Below are positions 11,395 to 55,601 of a stretch of 64,000 nucleotides of DNA, piece by piece. Each line of letters starts with the position of its first letter. The first letter of the stretch is position 1. This DNA is from Halovenus salina (GTDB lineage: Archaea; Halobacteriota; Halobacteria; Halobacteriales; Haloarculaceae). Position numbers and translations under genes: made by a program. The notes under the pieces were generated by a model. The model did no database searches. It saw nothing but the letters and a program-made list of their open reading frames with translations, and was not told where the DNA came from. The stretch lies in contig NZ_CP112972.1 in the NCBI RefSeq assembly GCF_026410925.1, positions 1,922,001-1,986,000 on the forward strand. Reading direction: 5' to 3'.

Positions 11395-12863
11395 TCGGTA
11401 CTTCACGAACGAGTCGACACAGCGTGATCTGAACGCCACAAACGAATCACTTTCTGTATGATTTTGGGGGAGATTCTCGCAACCACTGTGAAAGAACGGA
11501 CGGCAGAAACGAGCTACCACACCAAACGGACGAGAACAGGCAATTTTACGCCGGTGCTGCAGAGAGCTGTCGCTGACGGATCCTCGGACAGGCCGTGGGC
11601 TGACCGCGGTCAGCCCGCGGCTGCCACCGAGCCGTACGTCTCAGGAACACCCACACCGTTCGCCTCGACGTACCAGCGTCGCTCTAACTCGTCTTCGAGT
11701 TCGTTCCGAATCCAGTCACAGAACGTCTTGAACGTGAACTCCTCCGGGAGGTCGCGCCCGCCCCGCCGCGGGCGGGCGACGACCGCCCATCGGAGCACGA
11801 GCCACAGATTCTCCAGCAGTGCCGCGACGAGCATTATCGCAAATCGCACGACGGGATCACGCGTTGTCGTGATCCCTCGTGCTTGCCGAAGCAACCGGTA
11901 ACTCGTCTCGATGCCTGAGCGTTTCCTGTAGAGGCGTTCGACTTTCTTCGGTGACTTTTCAGCAACGCCACAGGCGACGTAGCCCCGAACAACCTCTCCG
12001 TGTTTGCCACGGTCGCCATTCTGGTAGGAGACTGCGACCGCGAGCGGGATCTGAAGCTCCCGCTCGCTGTCCTTGTACATGCGATAGGTCGTCATGTACG
12101 ACTTGTGTACGTCGAGTTTGTCCTTCATGCGCTCACCTTTCTTGGGAACGTGAACGACCGTTGCAGCGATCTCACGGGAACGGCGGATGACGCGTTCGTT
12201 GTAGAACCCGCTGTCGGCAAGCAGGAGGTCGATTTCGAAGGGATAGTTCTCGACGCGGGCGAGCACGCGCTCGACCGCGTCGGCCTCGTCTTCGTCGTTG
12301 CGGACGTACGTCATCGCCAGCGTCACTGGCTTTTCGTTGGAAACGATGTACGCCGTACAGTATCGGTGACACGTTGTGGTCCCATCTTTGGGGGACATTG
12401 AACAGAGTTCGCCTTCATCGGCGTAGTGATCGCCGTGGTAGGGGTTATCGATAAAGTCGATGGAGACGATTCTCGACCGGTCAGCGTCGAGAATCGTCAT
12501 AGCTAGGCGAGCGAGTAGGAGGTTAGCGACGAATTCGAGCCACTGCCGATTGAGTGTATGTAGCCACGTCAAGACGGTGTCGTCGCATGGTGTTCCGTCG
12601 GTGTCCTTGCAGGTTTCCCAAATCGAGGTCTGATTGGTGCAGGCCAAAATGACGACGAGCCAGATATCGCCGGGGTCGAGGGGGCTCCCCTCGACACCCG
12701 GCAACGGGAGTGGAGTGATGACCTCTTCCGCTACGTCTTTTACCTCCGACGCCGAAAGATAACCGTCTGGATTGGGGAGCTTGAACACATCCTAATCCAG
12801 ACACTTTCTCGTGGTCAAATCAACGATTCAATCTAACCGATTACGCTGTTCGTGAAGTACCGA
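11395..12863 (-). mobile_element. ISH3-family insertion sequence (1,469 bp) inserted in the DUF3800 gene
   Basis: Terminal inverted repeats are TCGGTACTTCACGAAC (11395-11410) and its exact complement GTTCGTGAAGTACCGA (12848-12863). The element is flanked by the direct repeat CTG (11392-11394 and 12864-12866), read as a 3-bp target duplication. Inside is one complete DDE transposase gene on the minus strand, with about 200 bp of non-coding sequence between its stop and the left end. Everything needed for movement appears intact, so the element may be active. Confidence 0.9.
11610..12788 (-). CDS. ISH3-family DDE transposase
   Basis: 392 residues. Catalytic residues lie in IVSIDFIDNPYHGD (first Asp), LLLADSGFYNERVI (second Asp) and RSGIETSYRLLRQ (Glu), the spacing and context found in haloarchaeal ISH3/IS4-like transposases; the TTTRDPVVRFAIMLVAALLENLWL and ARPRRGGRDLP stretches are also characteristic. 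It shares this layout with the broken copy at 53276-54420 but is a clearly different member. It catalyses cut-and-paste movement of the element that carries it. No frameshift or internal stop is visible. Confidence 0.93.
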   Translation of the reverse strand: MFKLPNPDGYLSASEVKDVAEEVITPLPLPGVEGSPLDPGDIWLVVILACTNQTSIWETCKDTDGTPCDDTVLTWLHTLNRQWLEFVANLLLARLAMTILDADRSRIVSIDFIDNPYHGDHYADEGELCSMSPKDGTTTCHRYCTAYIVSNEKPVTLAMTYVRNDEDEADAVERVLARVENYPFEIDLLLADSGFYNERVIRRSREIAATVVHVPKKGERMKDKLDVHKSYMTTYRMYKDSERELQIPLAVAVSYQNGDRGKHGEVVRGYVACGVAEKSPKKVERLYRKRSGIETSYRLLRQARGITTTRDPVVRFAIMLVAALLENLWLVLRWAVVARPRRGGRDLPEEFTFKTFCDWIRNELEDELERRWYVEANGVGVPETYGSVAAAG

Positions 12864-13469
12864 CTGTAAACCAGGAACCTTCGTGCTATCTCGTAACTCA
12901 AAGTTGACGGGGTGATCAAGAAGGTCAATACCAGAGAGTAGCTCGTCAACCTCCTCAGAAGGGTTCTTCCAGGTGTCTGAGTCCAGTACAATAGTCACCT
13001 CGGTAAACGTGTCATGAGCGACAATCTGGTTATGCAGTAATGGGTTTATTGCTGATATCAACGATAGACTCTGCAGTTTCTGTGCGCAATCTAACTGGGA
13101 ATCGAAACTGTTCCCGATAATTTCCAAGGCTAAATCGGTGTGTAACTGCTTGATAGAGTACCGTAAAGGACATGCAGTCTCCCACGGTGGACGGGCTTGT
13201 TTGATTGTGTTATCATCATATGCGAACTGTTCAATACACGGAACGACGTGGTTTAGAATGTCTGTCGGCAATCGGGAACCCTTTAATTCAGAAGCCTGAA
13301 AATTCTCTAGCTTCTGATTCACGGTCGTTAGTAGCTGACCAACCGTCGATTGCCCAACCTTGTGAAGGTTAGACTGGTCAGAGAGACACCAACACGCTGC
13401 AACAGTATAGTACGAACCACGTGAACAGTTGCCGCTTTCGTCCACAAATAGATAGAGATGATCAGTCAT
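12828..13469 (-). pseudogene. DUF3800 protein, N-terminal 202 residues, interrupted by an insertion sequence
   Basis: The frame begins at 13469 with MTDHLYLFVDESGN, the signature of DUF3800 proteins, a family with a predicted RNase H-like fold (Asp10, Glu11) often found near mobile DNA and defence genes; its biochemical role is unproven. The authentic sequence ends at KVPGLQ near 12867; the last 11 residues (SVLHEQRNRLD) are read from the insertion-sequence end and are not native. The missing end is at 11290-11394. Intact, it would be about 235 residues. Base composition is visibly AT-richer than the flanking genes, which suggests acquisition by transfer. Confidence 0.85.
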
Positions 13470-26082: not shown

Positions 26083-29000
26083 TTACTCTCCGACGGCCTC
26101 CTCCACTATCTCGATTTCCTCGTCGGTCAGCCCGTACAGTTCGTAGACGATTTGGTCGATGAGGTCGTCGGTTCGCTCGATTTTCGCCTCCAGTTCCTCG
26201 GCGCGGGCTTTCGTCTCCCGGTAGCTCGCCAGCCCCTCCGCGACGTCGGCCACCGCGGGGAGGGTCAGCTTCCGCAGGCGGTCGACCAGCGAATTGGTCT
26301 TCGTCGCCGTCTCGCGGAACTCCGCGAAGCCGCCGGCCTCCTCGACGGCCACCGGGACGAACGCCTCCACGAGGTCGGCCTCGGTCTCGGTGAGGTCGGT
26401 CACCCGCAACGCCGGCAGCGGCTCGGTCTCGGCATACCCCCACCGGTCGGTCTCGGGGTCGTCCCCGCCGTAGTCGTCGCGTCGGGCACCCTCCAGTTGT
26501 GCCTCCTCGGGCTTGTACCGCGCCGTGAGCCGAATCTCGACGGTGGTCGACGACTCCCGGACCACCTCGCAGTCGCCCACGCGGAGGTTCGGGTGCTCCT
26601 CTGTGGTCCGCTGGAGGATGGAGTCGGCCGCGCCCTCCGGGGGCTGGGTCAGGCCGATGTCTGCGAGAGTTTGACCTTCATTATATGCTCCGAAGTAGTC
26701 TATTAAATCCAAATTTAATTTATCGTGCTCTGTTCTCAAAATTATCATACATTCTGATAAAATTATCGCATAATTGTATCTATTTCTGGCATTCGAGTCT
26801 TCTTCCTGATAATTATTTAATATTTTAGCACAGTCCGTGATCCTCGTAGGCATCTTTTCTGATAATGAAAATGATATTTCATCACCTACGTAATTGGAGC
26901 CTAACGTTGGCATTGGCAACTGAACAATGTGTCCCCTTTTTACTTGAGCCAAAGCCTCTCCTTCCTCTGGGTTTATTATATTTTGGTAGTACCAATTGAC
27001 AAAACTGGAATTGATGAGAGCAAGTAAAAATAATGGAACATAATTCTCGCTTTTGGGAATTACTATGTGTAGATTATCCCGTGCTATGAATCGTTCATTA
27101 TCCAGTGCCGCGATTAGTGAGTCCCCTGTTTGTCGAATTAATATCTTCTTTTTTACATTGAAGATTTCTGGATCTCGCGGTGCAGCTAACCATTCCCCAT
27201 AGCTAATCCAGTAGTCATTATCCCACTTAATCAAATATCTGCTAATCAGACTTCCTCTAAGTAGTGGCCGGAACGAATCGTCTTCTTTTTGCTCGGAGAC
27301 GTATGGTTTCTCGTCTACAATTTCCTGTGTTTGTGGAGGGTTTCCCTTTCCCTTCTCAAATGGTTTTGTTCCATTGTATATATCACAAACATCTTTCATT
27401 TTCACTGATTCGGAAAACTTTTGTTCAATAGACAATGCTTCTGTGTCGGCAAATATGTTGACTGCTGAGCCTTCTCTGTTTTGAAGGAATTTTTGCTCTA
27501 GCTCTGATTTTGTCACTGTGTTGTCATATCTTCTCTTTTCAACACTAATCGAATTATGATTCTGAATCTCTGTTGAAAATATCAGCGATATTGGCTCAAC
27601 AGTGGCATCCGAAAATACTTCGTGTTCGTACTCAACAACCGAATGAATTGATGTTTGATTAAAAATTAATTCTCTAATATTTGTGAATTTTAGGTTAGTC
27701 AGCCAGGTGTTAGGAACAATCATACCAATCATTCCGCCATGTTTGGATATCTGCGTACACATCTCCATAAACAATAAATATCGGTCTAATTGGTAATCTT
27801 GGTAATCAAAGGTTAGATTGAAGTAGTCCTTTTTTACCTCAGACATCTCTTTTCCGTACGGTGGGTTCTTTACAATTGCATCAAATCCACTCTCCGCCTT
27901 CACCTCCCCGTCGATGTCGAAAAACACCTCGGGGAACTCCAGTTCCCAGTGGAAAAACGCCTCCTCCTCGGCGGTCGCCTGCGCGCTCTGGAACCAGTCG
28001 GTCTCGGCAATCTCGGCCCACTCTTCGTCGTCCTCGATAGCGCCGGCCATCTCCCGGTAGGCGTCCTCGGGCACGTCCAGGCCGAAGGCCTCGGCGGTGT
28101 GGACGTTCGCCAGCTCGAACAGGCGCTGGTAGAGCGGGTCGGCGCGGATGTCGTCGTAGATCTCTTCCATCGAGTGGATGTCCGCGAGCGTCTCGTTGTC
28201 GATGTCGAGCAACTCCTGCATCCGGTCCATCACGTGGTCGAGGGTCCGCCGCCGGGTGCGGTCGAAGGCCTCGAACAGCGTCAGTTGCCCCGCGGCCTCC
28301 TCGTCGCCGTCCGAGAGCACCTCCGTGATGTCCGACCCCACCAGCGAGTTCCCCGTCTTGAGGTGGTGGTCGAGGAAGGCAAGGGGCTGGTCCGCGGCCA
28401 GCGTTTCGAGCCACATCGACAGCTTCCCAAGCTCGACGGCCATCCCGTTGATGTCGACGCCGTAGATGCACTCCTTGGCGATTGTCCGCCGGAGGTCCTG
28501 CTCGTCGTAGGACTGTATCTCCTGCTCGCGGACCACCTCCATCACCTGCTCGGTCAGGTATCCCGTCGCGCTCGTCAGGAAGTGGGCGCTCCCCATCGCC
28601 GGGTCGAGTATCTTCAAATCGAGCACCGACTGCCAGAACCGCCGGAAGTACTCCGCCTCGCCCGGCTCCAGCCCGTCCGCGGCGAGGTCGTCTCTGATGT
28701 CTTCAAGCAGCGGGTCGACGGTCTCCTCGACGATGTAACTCACCACGTAGTCGGGGGTGTAGTACGCCCCCGTCGCCTTGCGCTCGCCGTCGTCGTTGAC
28801 CACGTAGAGGCCGCCGGCCTCGACGGTCTCGACCGCATCGGCGACGCTGACCTCCGTCGCAGGTTTCCAGACCTGGCCGCCGTCGGCGGCGACCGCGGCG
28901 TACTCCTCGGGCGCGACGTGGAACCCGTGTTCGAGCAGCCCCTCGTAGATACTCCCCAGATGGCGGGTGTCGAGGTCGGCGTAATCCGCAAGCACGAACG

Positions 29001-30216
29001 AGCCGTCCGTTTCGGTGGTCCCGAGCCGGTAGACCACCTCGGCGACGTATCTGTCTGCGACCTCGTGCTCTGCGAGGAAGGCGTGGTTTTCGTCGTCGAA
29101 CAGCCCGCCGTTGTAGGGCGGAATCCCCAGCTCCTCGTTGCCCTCGTCGACCAAATCGAAGAGGTTGCCGAGCCGGTTCCACATTGTCGTCGAGTACTCG
29201 CTGTAGGTGTCGAACCCCTCGCCGGCGCTAATCTCGTCGTGAATCTCTGAACGCAGTTGTGTCAGACTGAAATTCTCCTCGTACTCCGCGACCTGCTCGG
29301 GCGATTCTGGGTGTATCAGGTCACGAGATTCCGCGTAGAGGACGAACATCAGCCGGTACAACAACACGAGCGACTGCTCTTTGAGTTCGGTCAGCGCGGC
29401 CTCGTCGTCGGGGTCGATGTCGAGGTCGTTGGTCGCGACGAATCCCTCGCCGAGCACTCTGAGCGCGGTGAACACGTTGTCTTGGAGGTCCGACCCGAGT
29501 TCCTGAGCCGCGGTCTCGCTCTCGGACCAGACCGTATCCAGAAACGACGTGCCGGCCGTCTCGGCGAACGCTTCGGGCCGGAAGAACACGTAGAAGTATT
29601 TGAACGCCTCCAGGTCGCCCGATTCTAGCAGCTCCGGCAGGTCGACCTCGTAGTACGTCTCGGTGGCGTAATCTTTGGTCCCGTAGAGCCGCCACTTGCG
29701 CCCGTCGGTGAGAATCCCCCACCGGAGCCCCTCCGGCGTCTTGTCGAGATAGTACTTAATCTGCTGAGAGGCGTCGTAGTACGACCTGTTTTCGGCGAAC
29801 CGCTGGCCGAAGTCGGCGTTCCACTGTTTCGCTTCGAGCACCGCCGAGGCGAGGTTGTACATCGCTCCGGCGTCGCCTTTCTTCTTTTGCAGTGCCGCTC
29901 CCCGGCGCGTATCGCCGGACTCGAACAGCAGTCGGTCGTTGTACCCTTCGCCGCCCGGCAGCGTCGTCTCGGACATCATGCCGAATCCGAGCGCGTCGAG
30001 GACCTCCTCTATCCAGATATCGAGCAGTTCGTCTTCGTTGTACGAGGCAAGCAGCGACCCCTCGATCTCCCATAGCTCCTGTAGCTCCTCGAAGGCCTCC
30101 TGTGCGGCCTCGTCACAGTCCCAGGCGTCGAGGTCGTCGACGCGCTCGTCGAGATAGTAGCCCGCAAACAGGTTCGCGTTGTGATATGGCGTCGTCTGGA
30201 GGGTTGCCTGGCTCAT
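26083..30216 (-). CDS. Single-chain restriction-modification enzyme (type IIG-like, Eco57I-type methyltransferase)
   Basis: 1,377 residues. The N-terminal part carries a nuclease-like pattern, NDRLLFES ... LEAKQWNADF (about 93-133, PD-(D/E)xK type), then a helical linker. The adenine methyltransferase core follows: SAM motif ILDPAMGSAHFL (about 535-546) and catalytic NPPYGK (about 783-788). Next are a target-recognition region and a C-terminal helical end (AEELEAKIERTDDLIDQIVYELYGLT). Such enzymes cut and methylate one DNA site from one polypeptide. DNA from about 26690 to 27890, encoding residues ~775-1175, is visibly AT-rich with phage-like codon use, while both ends are GC-rich. No BREX or DISARM partner genes are nearby. 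Full length, with no internal stop. Confidence 0.88.
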   Translation of the reverse strand: MSQATLQTTPYHNANLFAGYYLDERVDDLDAWDCDEAAQEAFEELQELWEIEGSLLASYNEDELLDIWIEEVLDALGFGMMSETTLPGGEGYNDRLLFESGDTRRGAALQKKKGDAGAMYNLASAVLEAKQWNADFGQRFAENRSYYDASQQIKYYLDKTPEGLRWGILTDGRKWRLYGTKDYATETYYEVDLPELLESGDLEAFKYFYVFFRPEAFAETAGTSFLDTVWSESETAAQELGSDLQDNVFTALRVLGEGFVATNDLDIDPDDEAALTELKEQSLVLLYRLMFVLYAESRDLIHPESPEQVAEYEENFSLTQLRSEIHDEISAGEGFDTYSEYSTTMWNRLGNLFDLVDEGNEELGIPPYNGGLFDDENHAFLAEHEVADRYVAEVVYRLGTTETDGSFVLADYADLDTRHLGSIYEGLLEHGFHVAPEEYAAVAADGGQVWKPATEVSVADAVETVEAGGLYVVNDDGERKATGAYYTPDYVVSYIVEETVDPLLEDIRDDLAADGLEPGEAEYFRRFWQSVLDLKILDPAMGSAHFLTSATGYLTEQVMEVVREQEIQSYDEQDLRRTIAKECIYGVDINGMAVELGKLSMWLETLAADQPLAFLDHHLKTGNSLVGSDITEVLSDGDEEAAGQLTLFEAFDRTRRRTLDHVMDRMQELLDIDNETLADIHSMEEIYDDIRADPLYQRLFELANVHTAEAFGLDVPEDAYREMAGAIEDDEEWAEIAETDWFQSAQATAEEEAFFHWELEFPEVFFDIDGEVKAESGFDAIVKNPPYGKEMSEVKKDYFNLTFDYQDYQLDRYLLFMEMCTQISKHGGMIGMIVPNTWLTNLKFTNIRELIFNQTSIHSVVEYEHEVFSDATVEPISLIFSTEIQNHNSISVEKRRYDNTVTKSELEQKFLQNREGSAVNIFADTEALSIEQKFSESVKMKDVCDIYNGTKPFEKGKGNPPQTQEIVDEKPYVSEQKEDDSFRPLLRGSLISRYLIKWDNDYWISYGEWLAAPRDPEIFNVKKKILIRQTGDSLIAALDNERFIARDNLHIVIPKSENYVPLFLLALINSSFVNWYYQNIINPEEGEALAQVKRGHIVQLPMPTLGSNYVGDEISFSLSEKMPTRITDCAKILNNYQEEDSNARNRYNYAIILSECMIILRTEHDKLNLDLIDYFGAYNEGQTLADIGLTQPPEGAADSILQRTTEEHPNLRVGDCEVVRESSTTVEIRLTARYKPEEAQLEGARRDDYGGDDPETDRWGYAETEPLPALRVTDLTETEADLVEAFVPVAVEEAGGFAEFRETATKTNSLVDRLRKLTLPAVADVAEGLASYRETKARAEELEAKIERTDDLIDQIVYELYGLTDEEIEIVEEAVGE

Positions 30217-48636: not shown

Positions 48637-49146
48637 GTGTCAGAGACGCGGTCACACGTTCGTGAGTGTATCCACCGAAACCCCGGCATCCACTTCAACG
48701 CCGTCAGCCGGAAACTCGACATCGCGACCGGACAGACGCAGTACCACCTCCGGAAGCTCTTCCGGCGCGGTGACATCCAGCGCGAGTCCATCTGTGGACG
48801 GACTCACTACTACCCGCCAACGTACTCCGAGTGGGAACGGGGCGCGATTGCGCTGTTGCGCCGAGAGAGCACCCGCGAGGTTGTCGTCCTGTTGCTCGAA
48901 CGCGAGCGCGTCCCGCCGGCTGATATCGCCGACCGCCTCGGGACCGCCCGCAGCACCGTCGAGTGGCACCTCTCGAATCTCGTCGAGTACGACGTCGTCC
49001 GGAAGACCGACACTGACGACGGACTGGTCGTCGAGCTGACCGACTCCGAAACGACCTATCGGCTGCTCCGGGAGGTCGAACCACGCCTCTCCGACCGGCT
49101 CGTCGACCGGTTCTCGCGGCTCGCCGACGAACTCCTCGCCGAGTGA
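48637..49146 (+). CDS. Winged-helix transcriptional regulator with two wHTH domains
   Basis: 169 residues from a GTG at 48637. Two winged helices are visible: HVRECIHRNPGIHFNAVSRKLDIATGQTQYHLRKLFRRGDI (N-terminal), and LLLERERVPPADIADRLGTARSTVEWHLSNLVEYDVVRKT (C-terminal). This doubled ArsR-like layout is common in haloarchaea. It would bind DNA as a dimer and is divergent from the membrane gene, with 125 bp between. The inducer is unknown. Confidence 0.88.
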   Translation: MSETRSHVRECIHRNPGIHFNAVSRKLDIATGQTQYHLRKLFRRGDIQRESICGRTHYYPPTYSEWERGAIALLRRESTREVVVLLLERERVPPADIADRLGTARSTVEWHLSNLVEYDVVRKTDTDDGLVVELTDSETTYRLLREVEPRLSDRLVDRFSRLADELLAE

Positions 49147-49299
49147 CTGCATGTCGGCTGTGGTGCCGAAAACGCTATCTCTCTCACAGGTTGTTCTCTC
49201 TGTACAGTTTTCGTACCGCCGGTCTGCCAGGAGTGCTCCGTGTCTGTACGGCCATACCTTCGGAGGATCGTTCTAATGCGTGCCCTCTGTCGGAATCTG

Positions 49300-49763
49300 T
49301 ACAAGTGGTCTACTTCAAGCAACATCCTTTCGTATCGTCTTTTGACTGACAGCATGGTCGTGAGCTTGTCGGCCACACGTGAGTCAATCATCTTGTCTCA
49401 CCCCATCGCCTCCAACTCGTACGGGGGGACGGCCGTGACGCGCTTGTTGCGGACCGTCATTTCCTCATTGACGACCCGCGCGCCTAGGTCAAGAAACCGC
49501 TCCAGGCTGACGCTGCCTGGGAAGCCAATGTAGTTTTAGATGTGCGCACACTTCGTGATCGCTGCCATCTCGCCGTCGAAGACTATCGCGCAAATTCCGT
49601 ACCGGGCGGTGAAGACGGCGGCCGAGATGAACAGCTCGCCACCTTTCGCTTAGAAGGCTATTCCACCGGAGTTGAGCGGGTACGCTTCCACCGTTGGCGG
49701 CTCCGGAAGTCCGTACTCCGACGGGTCGCCAAGCGTGCCGGCGACGACCCACTCATGCGCTTG
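49300..49763 (-). pseudogene. Decayed gene with three in-frame stop codons
   Basis: Minus-strand frame beginning AHEWVVAGTLGDPSEYGLPE keeps coding character and codon bias for about 120 residues but is broken by TAA at about residue 35 (after GGIAF), TAA after KCAHI, and TGA after ELEAMG. Other readable pieces are GELFISAAVFTARYG and GFPGSVSLERFLDLGARVVN. I do not recognise the family. It starts right after the stop codon of the binding-protein gene at 49767, so it was probably the next gene of that operon. The remaining 49147-49300 shows no gene. Confidence 0.55.
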
Positions 49764-49766
49764 GAT

Positions 49767-51023
49767 TCAGCTGTTCCCCGAAATGATATCTGCAACGAGC
49801 TGGTGGTCGAATAGCTGTTCGTCAGGACTGAACTCGGGGTACGTGTCACCGTTCTCGTAGCTCGGCCACGCGCCAAACTGCTCCGGGTACAGTTGCTTGG
49901 CGGTCATCTCCAGCTGGAAGAGGTTCATCAGCGGTCCCTGCCAGCGTGTTCCCTGAACAGCCACTCGGTCGTTCTGGACCGCGGCCAACTCGCGGCCGAC
50001 GGGGTCCTCATTGAGATTCTGCCGCAGCTGCTCGAAGTCGACGGCATCCGTGACCGTCCACAGCGCCAGCAGCACGTCGGGATTGGCGTCCAACACGGCC
50101 TCCATATCGACCTGTTTGAACGCACCGTCCCACTCCTCGTCGCTGAAGGCGTCGACTGCCCCGAGCGGCCGGGTGTGGGCGTTGAAGTAGCCCGGCGCGT
50201 TGAGCCGGAGCACGTAGATCGTCGAGAGGTCCGCCGAGATCGAGAGGAACGCCGCGGTCGGGCGCTCGTCCTCCGGCGGGAGCCCGGCCTCGATGGTGTC
50301 ACGCAGGTCGTCGTGGACGGCTCGCAGCTTTTCGTACCGGGATTGCTCGCCGTACAGGCTCCCGACCTGCTCGAACACGTCCCAGAGGCGGTGGTACTCG
50401 TAGTCGTCAGTCCACTCCTTTGGCGGCGACTGGTGGAAACTGCTGTAGTAGTTACCGAGCCACGGGCCGGCATTTTCGGCGATTTCGTCGACGTCCTCCC
50501 GCGCCCAGTTGTCCTGGGTCGTCACCCACGCGGGGTCGACGAGGTGTAGATCGCTGTCGAATTCGTACAGCTGCTCCTTTGAGAACCCGTACGCATCTGT
50601 TCTATCACGCCACGCGATTTCGACACCGTCGAGACCGGCGGTGAAGTACTCCAGCGTCGAGGCGGTGCCGTCCCACCAGACGCTGTTGACGCTCTCGCCG
50701 CGGTCGAGCGCGGTCGCCATGTCGGCGAACCACGGGAAGTGAGTAAACACATTCGTCGGCGGCTCCTCCAGCGTGACTTCACCGACCGGCGACAGCTCGG
50801 CGGTGTACGTCGGCTCCTCGGTCGACTGTTCGGTTGGGGTCGACTCATTCGCCGTTTCGGTCGGTTCTGGTTGCTCCTCGGTGGGCGTCGGGCTCGAAGC
50901 CGACTCCTCCGATGACTGCCCGATACATCCTGCAAGCAGTCCCGAAACAGCGAGCGTACTGCCGCACTTGATCGCCGTTCTCCGGGTTAGCGGGTTTGCT
51001 CGATTCGTGTTGTCTTCATTCAC
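49767..51023 (-). CDS. Iron/siderophore-type ABC transporter substrate-binding lipoprotein
   Basis: 418 residues from the GTG at 51023, which lies 2 bp after the upstream gene's stop codon. A Tat lipoprotein signal is seen: TRRTAIKCGSTLAVSGLLAGC with the lipobox Cys. The body is a FecB/FepB-type (TroA fold) binding domain, e.g. NVFTHFPWFADMATALDRGE, LHLVDPAWVTTQDNW and NPDVLLALWTVTDAVDF. It would capture an iron chelate outside the membrane. No permease or ATPase of this system is in the window. Paralogue of the gene at 51026. Confidence 0.85.
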   Translation of the reverse strand: MNEDNTNRANPLTRRTAIKCGSTLAVSGLLAGCIGQSSEESASSPTPTEEQPEPTETANESTPTEQSTEEPTYTAELSPVGEVTLEEPPTNVFTHFPWFADMATALDRGESVNSVWWDGTASTLEYFTAGLDGVEIAWRDRTDAYGFSKEQLYEFDSDLHLVDPAWVTTQDNWAREDVDEIAENAGPWLGNYYSSFHQSPPKEWTDDYEYHRLWDVFEQVGSLYGEQSRYEKLRAVHDDLRDTIEAGLPPEDERPTAAFLSISADLSTIYVLRLNAPGYFNAHTRPLGAVDAFSDEEWDGAFKQVDMEAVLDANPDVLLALWTVTDAVDFEQLRQNLNEDPVGRELAAVQNDRVAVQGTRWQGPLMNLFQLEMTAKQLYPEQFGAWPSYENGDTYPEFSPDEQLFDHQLVADIISGNS

Positions 51024-51025
51024 GT

Positions 51026-52234
51026 TTAAATCTCTCCGTTGATGATGTCTGCAACCCGCTGGCGGTCGAACAGTGTGAGTGAGTCCTCCCGAAGCGTCTC
51101 TATCCCGTTCCACTCGCCGAACGCCTCGGGGTAGAACTGCCTCGCCGCTGCCTCTGTTTGGAAGAGGTTGACGACCGGACCTTGGTAAGCTGTGCCACCA
51201 CGGTACAGCCGGTCGTTCTGTACTGCTGACAACTGACTACCGATCGGATCCGCACGCATCGTTTCCATTTTAGACTCAAACTCCTCGGTTGAGACGTGCG
51301 AGAAGCCGTACTGGAAGACGATGGCGTCGGGGTCGACCTCGAGCAGTTGCTCGTAGTCGAACTGGCCGTAGCCCCCCTCGATGTGGTCGTCAAAGGCCCC
51401 ACGCATCTCGATGTCGCGGTACTGCTTGTGATTGTTCCCCTCCTGAACGGGATACACGTAGAACGTGGCCTCCTCGAATTTGGAGTTGACAGAGACGAGG
51501 CCGACGGACGGTCGCTCCTCTGACGGTGGCAGCATCTCTTCGATGGTCGCCTGCATGTCGCTGTGGATGGACGTAAGTGCCTCGTACCGCTCTCGCTCGT
51601 CGAAAGCGTCTGCGACGACCTCGAAGGCCTCGTACAGTGAGTAGTATGGGTAGTCGTGCCAGTCGTCGCCACGCCGCCGGATATAGTTCCCAAGAAACGG
51701 ATTGACCTCGGTAGCGATTTCCTCGATGTCGTCCTCACCCCAGTCGTCGGCTAAAACGCTGATCCAGTTGGGATCGAACAGGTGGACGTCAGCGTCCAAT
51801 TCGTAGAATATCTCCTTGTCGAACTCGCCGCCACCAGAAATCGGCGAGACGTCCTCAAAGGAAACCTCGACGTCTGGCAGTAGATCATAGAACACGTTTG
51901 GCATGCCCTCTGGGTCCCACAGACCCTGAAGGCTATCGGCCTTGCCTAGGGCAATTCCCATGTCGCCGTACGTACTAAGGTAACTCACCCAGGTCTCCGG
52001 CGACTCCTCGAATTCGACGGTCCCCATCGGTTCCATCGACACCGAGTAGCTCTGGTCCTCTGGCGTGGACGTCTCTGTCGCAGTCGATCCCCCGCTACTC
52101 GTCTCCGTCGGCGTCGATTCGGAGTCAGCCTGACTCGAGCACCCTGCAAGCAGTCCCGCCGCCACGAGCGCGCTGCCGTGGCGCATGTAGTCTCTGCGCG
52201 TCGGTCCGACCCCGTCTCCTGTTTCGCCTCTCAT
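51026..52234 (-). CDS. Iron/siderophore-type ABC transporter substrate-binding lipoprotein, second copy
   Basis: 402 residues. Tat lipoprotein signal PTRRDYMRHGSALVAAGLLAGC. Binding-protein body with LHLFD/DVHLFDPNWISVLADDWG, YYSLYEAFEVVADAFDERERYEAL and DPDAIVFQYGFSHVSTEEFE. The lead gene of a two-gene operon with the paralogue at 49767. Directly before the ATG is an iron box (52238-52253) with a TATA stretch (AAATAAAATAAAAG, 52251-52264) behind it, so it should be repressed when iron is plentiful. Confidence 0.87.
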   Translation of the reverse strand: MRGETGDGVGPTRRDYMRHGSALVAAGLLAGCSSQADSESTPTETSSGGSTATETSTPEDQSYSVSMEPMGTVEFEESPETWVSYLSTYGDMGIALGKADSLQGLWDPEGMPNVFYDLLPDVEVSFEDVSPISGGGEFDKEIFYELDADVHLFDPNWISVLADDWGEDDIEEIATEVNPFLGNYIRRRGDDWHDYPYYSLYEAFEVVADAFDERERYEALTSIHSDMQATIEEMLPPSEERPSVGLVSVNSKFEEATFYVYPVQEGNNHKQYRDIEMRGAFDDHIEGGYGQFDYEQLLEVDPDAIVFQYGFSHVSTEEFESKMETMRADPIGSQLSAVQNDRLYRGGTAYQGPVVNLFQTEAAARQFYPEAFGEWNGIETLREDSLTLFDRQRVADIINGEI

Positions 52235-52237
52235 GCT

Positions 52238-52253
52238 TTTAGGCTAGCCTAAA
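52238..52253 (-). promoter_or_regulatory. DtxR/IdeR-type iron box
   Basis: Perfect 16-bp palindrome TTTAGGCTAGCCTAAA, core TTAGGCTAGCCTAA (52239-52252), ending 4 nt before the ATG of the binding-protein gene and overlapping its TATA region. It matches the known DtxR-family consensus, used by haloarchaeal Idr/SirR repressors. A weaker second copy, TTAGGCGAACCAAA (52275-52288), lies 36 bp upstream. Iron-dependent repression is the expected effect. Confidence 0.78.
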
Positions 52254-52386
52254 TAAAATAAAAGTGTTCTGATTTTAGGCGAACCAAAAAGTCGAAACGC
52301 TCTCCTATTGTCGTGTATCGTATCTCTATTACTGTTCCGTCGTCGAGGTGATCAGCAAGAAATAACATTTGACAATGCAGACGGCG

Positions 52387-53075
52387 GTGTTCAGATAAGG
52401 ATTGAAGAGTGAGGCGTAGCGTTTTCTGAGTGACCATGCCCGAAAACGCTAGCCTCAGCGGTAGTATCGACCAGATCGACTTAGAGTTTATTGAACGCGA
52501 AGCGACACCGCGATTTGTGATGAAACTCAGTATTCAGCTGCATCTTGCTGGACTGTCGCTTCCGAATACTGTTTCAGTTCTCGAAATATTCGGTGTCGAA
52601 CGTGCACGTTCCACCGTTCATAACTGGGTTCACAAGGCAGATTTACAGCCCAGAGAAGGACAAAGCCCGGATCACGTTGCGGTTGATGAGACCGTGATCC
52701 GACTCAACGACGAGCAGTATTGGCTGTACGCCGCCGTCGACCCAGAAACAAACGAATTACTGCATACACAGCTTGAACCGACAACAAACAAGGTCATCGC
52801 TCACGCGTTTGTTGCTGAACTCCGCGAGAAACACGACGTTGACGATGCCGTGTTTCTCATTGATGGCTCGCACTCGCTGAACGCTGCGTGTTCAAGACAC
52901 GGCCTCGATTTCAGATACGAACGCCATGGAAATCGCAATAGTGTCGAACGTGTATTTCGTGAAGTAAAACGACGAACCTCTTCGTTTTCAAACTGTTTCA
53001 GCAACGCCGCCGCAGACACAGCTGACGACTGGCTCAAATCATTCAGTTTCGCATGGAATCAGCTTATCTGAACAC
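52387..53075 (+). mobile_element. IS6-family insertion sequence
   Basis: About 690 bp with 13-bp inverted ends GTGTTCAGATAAG (52387-52399) and CTTATCTGAACAC (53063-53075). One transposase gene fills it; its TGA stop is inside the right end. No direct repeat is seen at the edges, which is usual when IS6 elements rearrange or delete neighbouring DNA. It sits where the promoter and N-terminus of the third binding-protein gene should be. Confidence 0.85.
52436..53071 (+). CDS. IS6-family transposase
   Basis: 211 residues from the ATG at 52436. DDE catalytic residues: VAVDETVIRLNDEQYWLYAAVD (Asp), VFLIDGSHSL (Asp) and NSVERVFREVKRRTSSF (Glu). An N-terminal HTH-like stretch (SLPNTVSVLEIFGVERARSTVHNWVHK) should bind the ends. 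Haloarchaeal IS6 (ISH14/15-like) members have this size. No frameshift is seen. Confidence 0.93.
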   Translation: MPENASLSGSIDQIDLEFIEREATPRFVMKLSIQLHLAGLSLPNTVSVLEIFGVERARSTVHNWVHKADLQPREGQSPDHVAVDETVIRLNDEQYWLYAAVDPETNELLHTQLEPTTNKVIAHAFVAELREKHDVDDAVFLIDGSHSLNAACSRHGLDFRYERHGNRNSVERVFREVKRRTSSFSNCFSNAAADTADDWLKSFSFAWNQLI

Positions 53076-53229
53076 TACCGGCAAGATGGTATCTCGAAAG
53101 AGTTACTTATCGAACTCAATGCCGATGCACACTTTATTTTCGAAGATATAACTGAACGGGTTGGGCCGTTCTGTGGGAATACGAGCTTCTCGACCTGCTC
53201 GTGGCACGAAGATAATCCCTCTTATAGCC
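53076..53229 (+). pseudogene. Middle fragment of a third binding-protein gene
   Basis: The + frame reads RQDGISKELLIELNADAHFI, then EDITERVGPFCGNTSFSTCS and WHEDNPSYS. It aligns with the intact paralogue's GGGEFDKEIFYELDADVHLF, EDDIEEIATEVNPFLGNYI and WHDYPYYS. It begins at the IS6 right edge (the part before is lost) and is cut at 53229 by the ISH3-family element. The rest of the gene is at 54630-55219, and the two join in frame through the GCC repeat. Confidence 0.8.
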
Positions 53230-54626
53230 TCAGTCGATCACATCGAGTTAGAGGAAGCGTCTGCTTGAGGAAGATGTGCAACAACCACAAGCAGACAACA
53301 AGATAGAGGAAGAGCACCTGCTTAATTTTGTCGTCAACAGTCTTGAGAAGGAACTTGCGGTAGATCTCGGAGAAGACGTTAAGGTTTCTACGGAGACATT
53401 GTATGAGGTCCTCGCCGGCGCCAGCGCCGGCGGGACCTCGATCAATCACGTCTGCGAAACGACAGACGACTCGCCGCATGCCAATACCGTCCGAGGATAT
53501 CTCACCGATCAGTTCGACCTAGATACTGTCGAGGCAGTTGGAGACATGCTCTTACAACGAGATGCGCTTGAGACATTGCCGGATCGGCCGGTGGAGGTCG
53601 TCGTCGACCTCCACCTCGATCCCTACTACGGTGACGAAGACGAGACAGAGGCTCTGTACTTCTCACAGGCGAAACGAGGAACCACCGCGTTTCACGCCTA
53701 TGCCACGCTCTACGCGCGGGTGCGCAACAAGCGCTACACACTGGCAGTTCGTCAGCTGGTTGACGGTGAGACGGCTAGCGATGTCCTCGCAGAGTTTCTC
53801 GAACTTCTCGACGGCCTTGACCTGGCCGTCAAGGCCGTCTACCTTGACCGCGGATTTTACAACAGCACCTGTCTCAGCTTGCTGTACGCGCACAACTACG
53901 CCTACGTCATGCCGATTGTCAAGTGGGGCGAGGCGATCCAGGAGGAACTCAACAGAGGCTGGAGCCGCGAGATCGAACACGATCTCGCCGGCAAGGTAAC
54001 GTTCCCTGTGTTCATCGACTGTGTCTACCAACAAGGACGGTACGACGAACACGGGGTGGCGCGCCACGGCTACGCCGCTGACGCGCCGTTCATCGACACG
54101 CCACGAGATGCACGAGAGCACTACAGCAAACGTTTCGGCATCGAATCGAGCTATCGATTAGCCAAACAGAGTCTCGCGTTCACTGTTCGCAGGACGCTGG
54201 TCTGCGACTGGTGATGTTTATCGTGAGCTTGCTGCTCCAGAACAGCTGGCGGTATCTCCACTGGCAATACGTGGCGGCGCCCCGCCGCGGGGGGCGCCGC
54301 CTCTGGAAATGGCCGTTCAGAGAGTTCTGTGAGATGGTACTCCGGGCAGCCTGGACAGCACTTGGCGTCCGCAGAGCTGTCCCAGCGAACCAACCGCTTG
54401 ACGACCGGTTCTTCCGGTAGCTGCCCCAAATGAGGACAGCGGTCGTGAGTGGCAACGCTGTCGCGTCGGCGGCGATCCGCCGCCGACAGCGACTGGTAAG
54501 CATCAAACTCCGGCCGCCAAGAACAGAACTTACCGGTTCACTCCGTTCGAACTCTATCCAAGTATCGAAGACAACTATTCAGCGGCTACTGGACAGGGTA
54601 GTGAGCTCTTTGATGTGATCGACTGA
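53230..54626 (+). mobile_element. ISH3-family insertion sequence, second copy (inactive)
   Basis: About 1,397 bp. Ends TCAGTCGATCACATC (53230-53244) and GATGTGATCGACTGA (54612-54626) are exact inverted repeats. Flanked by GCC on both sides (53227-53229 and 54627-54629). Removing the element restores the binding-protein reading frame (...SYS-LYE...). Its transposase gene is frameshifted. Confidence 0.85.
53276..54420 (+). pseudogene. ISH3-family transposase with a frameshift
   Basis: First part, 53276 to about 54183: EVVVDLHLDPYYGDEDETEA with the first Asp, VKAVYLDRGFYNSTCLS with the second, and FGIESSYRLAKQSLAFT with the Glu. The frame then ends in LVCDW-stop at 54214. The C-terminal part continues in another frame from about 54186: SQDAGLRLVMFIVSLLLQNSWRY, then APRRGGRRLW and VPANQPLDDRFFR to 54420. 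One base lost near 54183 explains it. The element is probably immobile by itself unless frameshifting is programmed. Confidence 0.82.
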
Positions 54627-54629
54627 GCC

Positions 54630-55219
54630 TATATGAAGCGACGAAAAAAGTCGCACAGGTATTCCAGCGGATGGATCGATACGACACACTCGTAGCGTTA
54701 CACGATACGTTCCTTCGCAGAATTCAGGAACGGCTTCCACCGGAAAGTGAACGACCAGCCATCGCGCTGCTTTCACCGGCCTCGGTTGAGCCCGAGACGT
54801 TTTACCCTTCCCGACTTGGTGATACAACTGCGTACAAACACTGGCACGATCTCGGTGTGAGTGATGCACTTGAAAATTCATATATTCAGAGTTTCACCTC
54901 TGACCGTGGCGAGATCGACTATGAACCGCTGTTAGAGATTGACCCAGAGGTGTTGATGTTTTATACCGACAAACATTGGTCACGGTCTGATTTTCGGGAC
55001 CAGTACCTCGCGTTCTTACAGAATCACAATACGGCGAGCCAGCTCACAGCGGTCCAGAATGGCAACGTATACCCAGCAGGAGGTATGCCTCAAGGTCCAA
55101 TCATCAACTTCTCGAAAACCGAACGCGCAGCAAAGCAGCTGTTCCCCGAAGAGTTCGACAAAAACGAGCAGTTATACGACCGCCAGAAGATAGCCGATAT
55201 TCGGGCTGGGGACCTTTGA
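54630..55219 (+). pseudogene. C-terminal fragment of the third binding-protein gene
   Basis: From the IS edge the frame reads LYEATKKVAQVFQRMDRYDT and continues to the stop at 55219: RIQERLPPESERPAIALLSP, then YEPLLEIDPEVLMFYTD, GNVYPAGGMPQGPIINFSKT and LYDRQKIADIRAGDL. These match the intact paralogues (e.g. SLYEAFEVVADAFDERERYE, IEEMLPPSEERPSVGLVS, FDRQRVADIINGEI). No signal peptide or N-terminal lobe remains, so it is not functional. The shorter start at 54671 would also give no complete domain. Confidence 0.85.
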
Positions 55220-55601
55220 ATTATGGAGTAGACGACACTTGGAGATACCGTCTGATCGTCAATTGCATCTGCTCGACTGCCGTAGGCTCGGTGATAGGAA
55301 AGAGTGGATGCTTGATGCTGGCAAGAGCCAGGAAATCATCGATCAGGTGATCGATCTTAGGTTAGAATTTGATACTCACTTGATTTACTCCTGATTGGTG
55401 GGTATTGGCTGTCTCTCCTCAAATACCGAATCAGCTCGATATCGACGGCAAGTGTTGCTCTGTTGGTGGTCTGTAGAAATCCAAACGCAGAATCTCTGTC
55501 TGGCTGGCATATGTCCTGTTTTGTATATCGCCATATGGTTTACTGAGCAACACAGACAAACCTCTCTCAAAAGGCATGAAGCCGCCAGAAAAGCGCCGCA
55601 G
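55220..55601. other. Gene-free segment with a palindrome
   Basis: No ORF with coding character. It contains the perfect inverted repeat ATCGATCA-GG-TGATCGAT (55338-55355), followed by TTAGGTTAG (55358-55366), which looks like half of an iron box, and a weak inverted pair GTGTTGCTC (about 55449) / GAGCAACAC (about 55545). The AT-rich base composition and lack of genes suggest decayed mobile or regulatory DNA. Confidence 0.4.

Follow-up and report, generated by a model that had tools for sequence, protein, structure and literature searches.

Remains of a FhuD-like substrate-binding protein gene beside two insertion sequences in a haloarchaeal chromosome

The window considered here, a stretch of 64,000 nucleotides, is part of a haloarchaeal chromosome (genome G000, contig 1, positions 1922001-1986000). 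Two intact genes encoding substrate-binding proteins, SBP_A and then SBP_B, follow each other leftward and, to the right of this pair, an IS6-family element is followed by a short coding piece, then by an ISH3-family element and then by a longer coding piece with its end at position 55219 (Table 1). The PF01497 score of SBP_A (26.9 bits) is slightly below the cut-off of 27.5, and SBP_B, upstream of which no iron box of its own was found, groups with other haloarchaeal B-type genes in a supported clade of the tree. Elsewhere in the window there is a large DNA methyltransferase-like gene (26083-30216, minus strand) with DrmMI as its best PADLOC match, followed by type IIG models; a segment of 40% G+C at 27-28 kb inside this gene is perhaps an exchanged recognition domain.

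Table 1. Features of the binding-protein locus (positions are those of the window)
Feature	Positions	Strand	Evidence
SBP_B, intact substrate-binding-protein gene, second of the leftward pair	49767..51023	-	Pfam PF01497, 43.7 bits
SBP_A, intact substrate-binding-protein gene, first of the leftward pair	51026..52234	-	Pfam PF01497, 26.9 bits
Putative proximal iron box TTTAGGCTAGCCTAAA, ends 3 nt before the SBP_A start	52238..52253		Motif search
Putative distal iron box TTTAGGCGAACCAAAA, matching at 11 of 12 positions and lying 39 nt upstream of the SBP_A start	52274..52289		Motif search
IS6-family insertion sequence, 697 bp, transposase frame intact, inverted ends	52383..53079	+	Profile and end/flank comparison
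Transposase of the IS6 element, scanned as 211 aa (ORF listed as 52430-53071)	52436..53071	+	NCBIfam transpos_IS6 (NF033587), 194 bits, cut-off 125
Third binding-protein pseudogene, piece 1, covering approximately orthologue residues 138-202	53080..53230	+	Orthologue alignment
AGCCT, 5-bp target duplication of ISH3, left side	53226..53230		Flank comparison
ISH3-family insertion sequence, 1395 bp	53231..54625	+	NCBIfam transpos_ISH3 and flanking 5-bp duplication
ISH3-family transposase with a frameshift, 312 aa instead of the 381 aa of the other four copies	53276..54214	+	Copy alignment
AGCCT, 5-bp target duplication of ISH3, right side	54626..54630		Flank comparison
Third binding-protein pseudogene, piece 2, covering approximately orthologue residues 202-398	54626..55219	+	Orthologue alignment and PF01497
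5' remnant of a decayed aldo/keto-reductase gene, keeping about 58 of its 321 codons	55224..55391	+	Alignment to relatives

The two coding pieces match a single orthologous protein in the correct order: the full-length protein of genome G001 aligns with 53079-53240 (residues 137-206, 59% identity) and with 54623-55216 (residues 201-398, 73%), and the overlap between the two matches takes in the AGCCT duplication. We collected 12 relatives from one scan of named genomes, 62-77% identical over piece 2; three of these relatives are identical with the loci from G001, G022 and G039, which were counted once. Piece 1 matched all 12 intact orthologues with E values from 1e-16 to 1e-20, far beyond chance when compared with the sequence left of the IS6 element (52235-52382), in which no N-terminal coding sequence was recognisable and the best match had an E value of about 0.1. 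Piece 2 contains a PF01497 match of 40.9 bits that spans profile positions 110-229 of 235; two intact orthologues that were scanned gave 55.6 and 56.6 bits for the same family, and the search of solved structures yielded no PDB sequence match to an intact orthologue at E 0.01. In a tree of 51 rows, piece 2 and the 12 relatives form a group of 13 rows with a support of 100/100, in which the neighbour of piece 2 is a gene carried by a Halostella pelagica plasmid.

In all 12 relatives the orthologue is an open, full-length gene, with a lipoprotein-type N-terminus and an N-terminal part that are both absent from the window. The N-terminal LxGC motif of these orthologues is presumably a lipobox. 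The preliminary description, which had proposed that a third, rightward binding-protein gene lost its promoter and N-terminal part at the IS6 element, is borne out, and in none of the 12 does the fragment stand without a full N-terminus. Across the 18 genomes of the genus that were compared (its own included), this type of gene occurs at an identity of at least 70% only in the genome studied and in G001, where it lies elsewhere.

The ISH3-family element encodes a transposase that matches NCBIfam transpos_ISH3 (NF033541) with 329 bits (cut-off 225) and has terminal inverted repeats with CAGTCGATCACATC ends. Perfect 5-bp duplications flank all five near-identical ISH3 copies of the genome, this one included, and the reading frame of the binding protein continues across the element as ...TAT AGC CTA TAT GAA... 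The split had first been placed at 53229/54627, within 2 bases of the mapped ends, and the two pieces had been said to join in frame through a single GCC; the frame holds, and the join is the duplicated AGCCT, found on both sides, so that GCC was rejected as the target duplication. Uninterrupted sequence is present at the corresponding place in 12 of 12 relatives, as expected of an empty site. Only one substitution and one 1-nt deletion distinguish this element from the four other copies, which indicates a very recent insertion. The deletion shortens the transposase from 381 to 312 aa, so that an intact transposase, which bears on whether the copy is active and not on its membership of the family, is lacking; this deletion, unique to this copy among the five, may be genuine or may stem from sequencing. 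Another transposase of the ISH3 family, apparently intact, is encoded at 11610-12788 (minus strand; NCBIfam, 414 bits) and adjoins a 213-aa gene at 12828-13469. Paper searches covering ISH3 target duplications, pseudogenes created by insertion sequences in haloarchaea and the insertion sequences of Halovenus gave no title or abstract on this locus.

The IS6-family element has terminal inverted repeats (GTGTTCAGATAAG / CTTATCTGAACAC), and its 8-bp flanks are unlike each other (ATGCAGAC / GGCAAGAT), so that there is no target duplication. Flanks were compared for 7 copies out of the 19 IS6-type matches in the genome: four have an 8-bp duplication and three, among them the copy studied here, have none. 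According to the passages of PMC7986276 on transposition, insertion of an IS6 element generates 8-bp direct repeats, and intramolecular replicative transposition deletes adjacent DNA with loss of these repeats; the missing duplication is therefore what would be expected if this copy had transposed in that way. The absence of the duplication bears on how the copy arrived and not on the family to which it belongs. The other long IS6 copies of the genome are only 83-87% identical to it, with no close sibling there, and the nearest copies found are three in G003, at 90%.

The same missing duplication would also fit a different history, in which the fragment was not cut in place and an IS6-linked inversion, or recombination between two IS6 elements, brought a distant gene, or one that already lacked its 5' part, upstream of the leftward pair. 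The 19 IS6-type matches of the genome could recombine, and not one of the 12 relatives has the orthologue divergent from an A/B-like pair; it neighbours A/B-like genes in five of the 12 loci, where all run in the same direction. A recent inversion, however, should have left a partner IS6 copy sharing the orphan flanks, and none was found among the 7 copies examined, and should have left the N-terminal half elsewhere in the genome, where it was not found at the level of identity expected of an orthologue. We consider such a rearrangement possible, although the less likely course. The preliminary description had proposed looking for an intact divergent gene in related strains; the search returned none among the 12 relatives, nor was the ancestral state of the exact locus found in any relative examined. 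As the intact divergent gene was found in no relative, deletion in place at the IS6 element, which we prefer, is a step that we infer.

Both putative iron boxes between SBP_A and the IS6 element are accounted for by SBP_A, given their register of 3 and 39 nt before its start. The presumed regulator is called FerR/DtxR-like on the basis of PMC11349517, in a part of which the fhu genes of Haloferax volcanii are described as preceded by a ferR signal. With at most one mismatch, the whole genome contains 28 sites for this box and 7 for the reversed control pattern. Close pairs of boxes recur at a fixed spacing on contig 1 of G000, where the starts are 35-37 bases apart in seven of the eight close pairs listed, and the proximal box of the pairs ends 2-5 nt before the start codon in the genes that could be read; such a spacing would put the two boxes on either side of the TATA region in a leaderless promoter. 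In eight of the 12 intact orthologues, a 16-base palindrome, either TTTAGGNNNNCCTAAA or the same with one base changed, ends 3-4 nt before the start, and four of these eight have a weaker second box that ends 38-40 nt before the start. The remaining four (L079, L082, L083 and L086) have no box of their own and lie inside tandem arrays of binding-protein genes in which a pair of boxes accompanies the first gene, the spacing being unsure for L083, the called start of which is upstream of the boxes.

These positions weigh against the suggestion that the intact gene once diverged from SBP_A and shared the iron-box region of the leftward operon, which we rejected and now regard as very unlikely. 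The genes do point apart today with the boxes between them, and the boxes, being almost palindromic, might in principle act on both sides; both are nevertheless in the register of SBP_A, each intact orthologue either has a box ending 3-4 nt from its own start or sits in a tandem array, and no N-terminal coding sequence lies between the distal box and the IS6 element. The idea of a shared promoter is corrected accordingly: in these genes, each iron box stands at a fixed place just before the start of its own gene. The broken gene has no iron box left in register; it must have had a box of its own or sat behind another gene, and in both cases that part has been lost.

A third lesion, absent from the preliminary description, lies wholly inside piece 1 and was recovered in separate comparisons: after the HFI codons, exactly 48 nt are missing in frame, corresponding to 16 codons (DPNYM..LIPNW...D) that follow HFI/HFV in 12 of 12 intact genes. 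Of the 20 positions of piece 1 that are otherwise invariant, five carry a change private to it, against 0 to 3 in the intact genes; for piece 2 the count is seven of 75, against 0 to 8. The 196 codons of piece 2 are free of stops and frameshifts, and its pN/pS against the intact genes is 0.165-0.307, inside the range of the 66 intact pairs (0.113-0.476), so that it has no visible decay, which fits a late inactivation.

An open frame and a pN/pS like that of intact pairs are the point against regarding the gene as dead, and piece 2, open from the ATG at 54671, might still be translated as a 182-aa cytosolic domain of some use. We find this hardly credible, since such a product would be without the signal peptide and the N-terminal part of a two-lobed binding protein, its Pfam match covers only the C-terminal portion of the profile and, with so recent an ISH3 insertion, an open frame needs no selection. 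Wrong assembly at the insertion sequences can practically be dismissed, since near-identical ISH3 copies make misjoining possible in principle but matching AGCCT copies and an in-frame continuation would then be a remarkable accident, and the IS6 element is too unlike the other long copies to be a collapsible repeat.

Directly downstream, past the end given in the preliminary description, the aldo/keto-reductase remnant is interrupted by a stop as its third codon and has lost single nucleotides at two places. In Haloarcula pellucida and on the Halostella plasmid, an aldo/keto-reductase gene (Pfam PF00248) starts right after the stop of the orthologue, and the genome studied has an intact copy, 66% identical, elsewhere. 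Because the remnant is more decayed than the binding-protein pieces, decay of the cassette probably began before ISH3 arrived. On the Halostella pelagica plasmid (L076:6548-9142), the orthologue and the aldo/keto reductase precede a convergent gene for a lysine/ornithine monooxygenase (Pfam PF13434); the latter neighbour hints at a possible link with siderophore biosynthesis.

Farther right, gcvT and gcvH are conserved across the genus genomes compared and the region after gcvH varies, with nos-like ABC genes in G001, a siderophore-type ABC operon and a binding protein in G003 and others in G007, the gene names beyond gcvH in these three genomes coming from reading the translations and not from family searches. 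As synteny with G001 picks up again at an HTH gene (48637-49146), the block formed by A, B and the broken gene occupies a variable slot. It extends over 49200-55500, between this HTH gene and gcvH, and its cargo differs in G001, G003 and G007.

As judged from its sequence, the window carries a pseudogene of the PF01497 family and not a working member. It is very probable that this was a FhuD-like, iron-regulated gene for a siderophore or iron substrate-binding lipoprotein, once placed before an aldo/keto-reductase gene and now dead through the action of insertion sequences. An IS6-linked deletion would have taken away the promoter together with any iron box, the signal peptide and roughly the first 136 codons, presumably by intramolecular replicative transposition that deleted the flank and left no 8-bp duplication; the remnant also lost the 48 nt in frame; and later, very recently, ISH3 inserted by simple transposition, duplicating AGCCT. 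The pieces, the lesions, the duplication and the orthologues are seen in the sequences, and we infer the order of events and the mechanism of the IS6 deletion. The two insertions had been described as occurring in series and as having destroyed the gene: both elements stand and ISH3 is clearly recent, but the data put no date on the IS6 event, so that the order is a probable one, and the 48-nt deletion and the decayed downstream gene mean that the two insertions are not the whole story.

The remains cannot give a functional receptor, because they have neither a promoter or iron box in register, nor a lipoprotein signal, nor the N-terminal part. The loss was probably tolerated because redundancy is normal in this family, a search with the full protein listing eight other open, full-length places in the genome (E at or below 1e-45). 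The kind of feature is already known, an ordinary pseudogene made by insertion sequences among intact paralogues. It clearly exemplifies a redundant iron-receptor gene lost through several successive lesions, the latest of which is marked by an intact target duplication, and it illustrates a possible course of the turnover of binding-protein paralogues in haloarchaea. More tentatively, and with some doubt, the slot beside gcvH might be an exchange site of the genus for iron-uptake cassettes, and the broken gene the relic of a siderophore-receptor and aldo/keto-reductase cassette spread by plasmids, dispensable beside A and B and dismantled stepwise by small deletions, by IS6 and finally by ISH3.

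Among known systems, the broken gene resembles haloarchaeal FhuD-type proteins, of which Haloferax volcanii has 11 FhuD paralogues according to a passage of PMC11349517, in the PF01497 match of piece 2 and of the two intact orthologues, in the many paralogues per genome and in the iron-type box upstream of the intact members. It is unlike them in having no N-terminal part, signal peptide or promoter and in being split in its rest, siderophore binding being a prediction. The IS6 element is like the archaeal branch of its family as portrayed in parts of PMC7986276, with its 697 bp, a transposase of about 211 aa, inverted ends and the 8-bp duplications of four sibling copies, and differs from a typical IS6 in bordering a deletion and having no duplication, a loss described there for intramolecular transposition. 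The other element shares with the ISH3 family (NF033541) its 329-bit transposase, terminal inverted repeats and 5-bp duplications, and is set apart from the other copies by its 1-nt deletion (312 against 381 aa). Finally, in the tandem binding-protein operons of Halosimplex, Halorhabdus and Salinarchaeum (L079, L082, L083 and L086), the orthologue also has A-like and B-like paralogues as neighbours; the genes of those operons all share one orientation, and a pair of boxes is found close to the first of them, whereas here the broken gene faces away.
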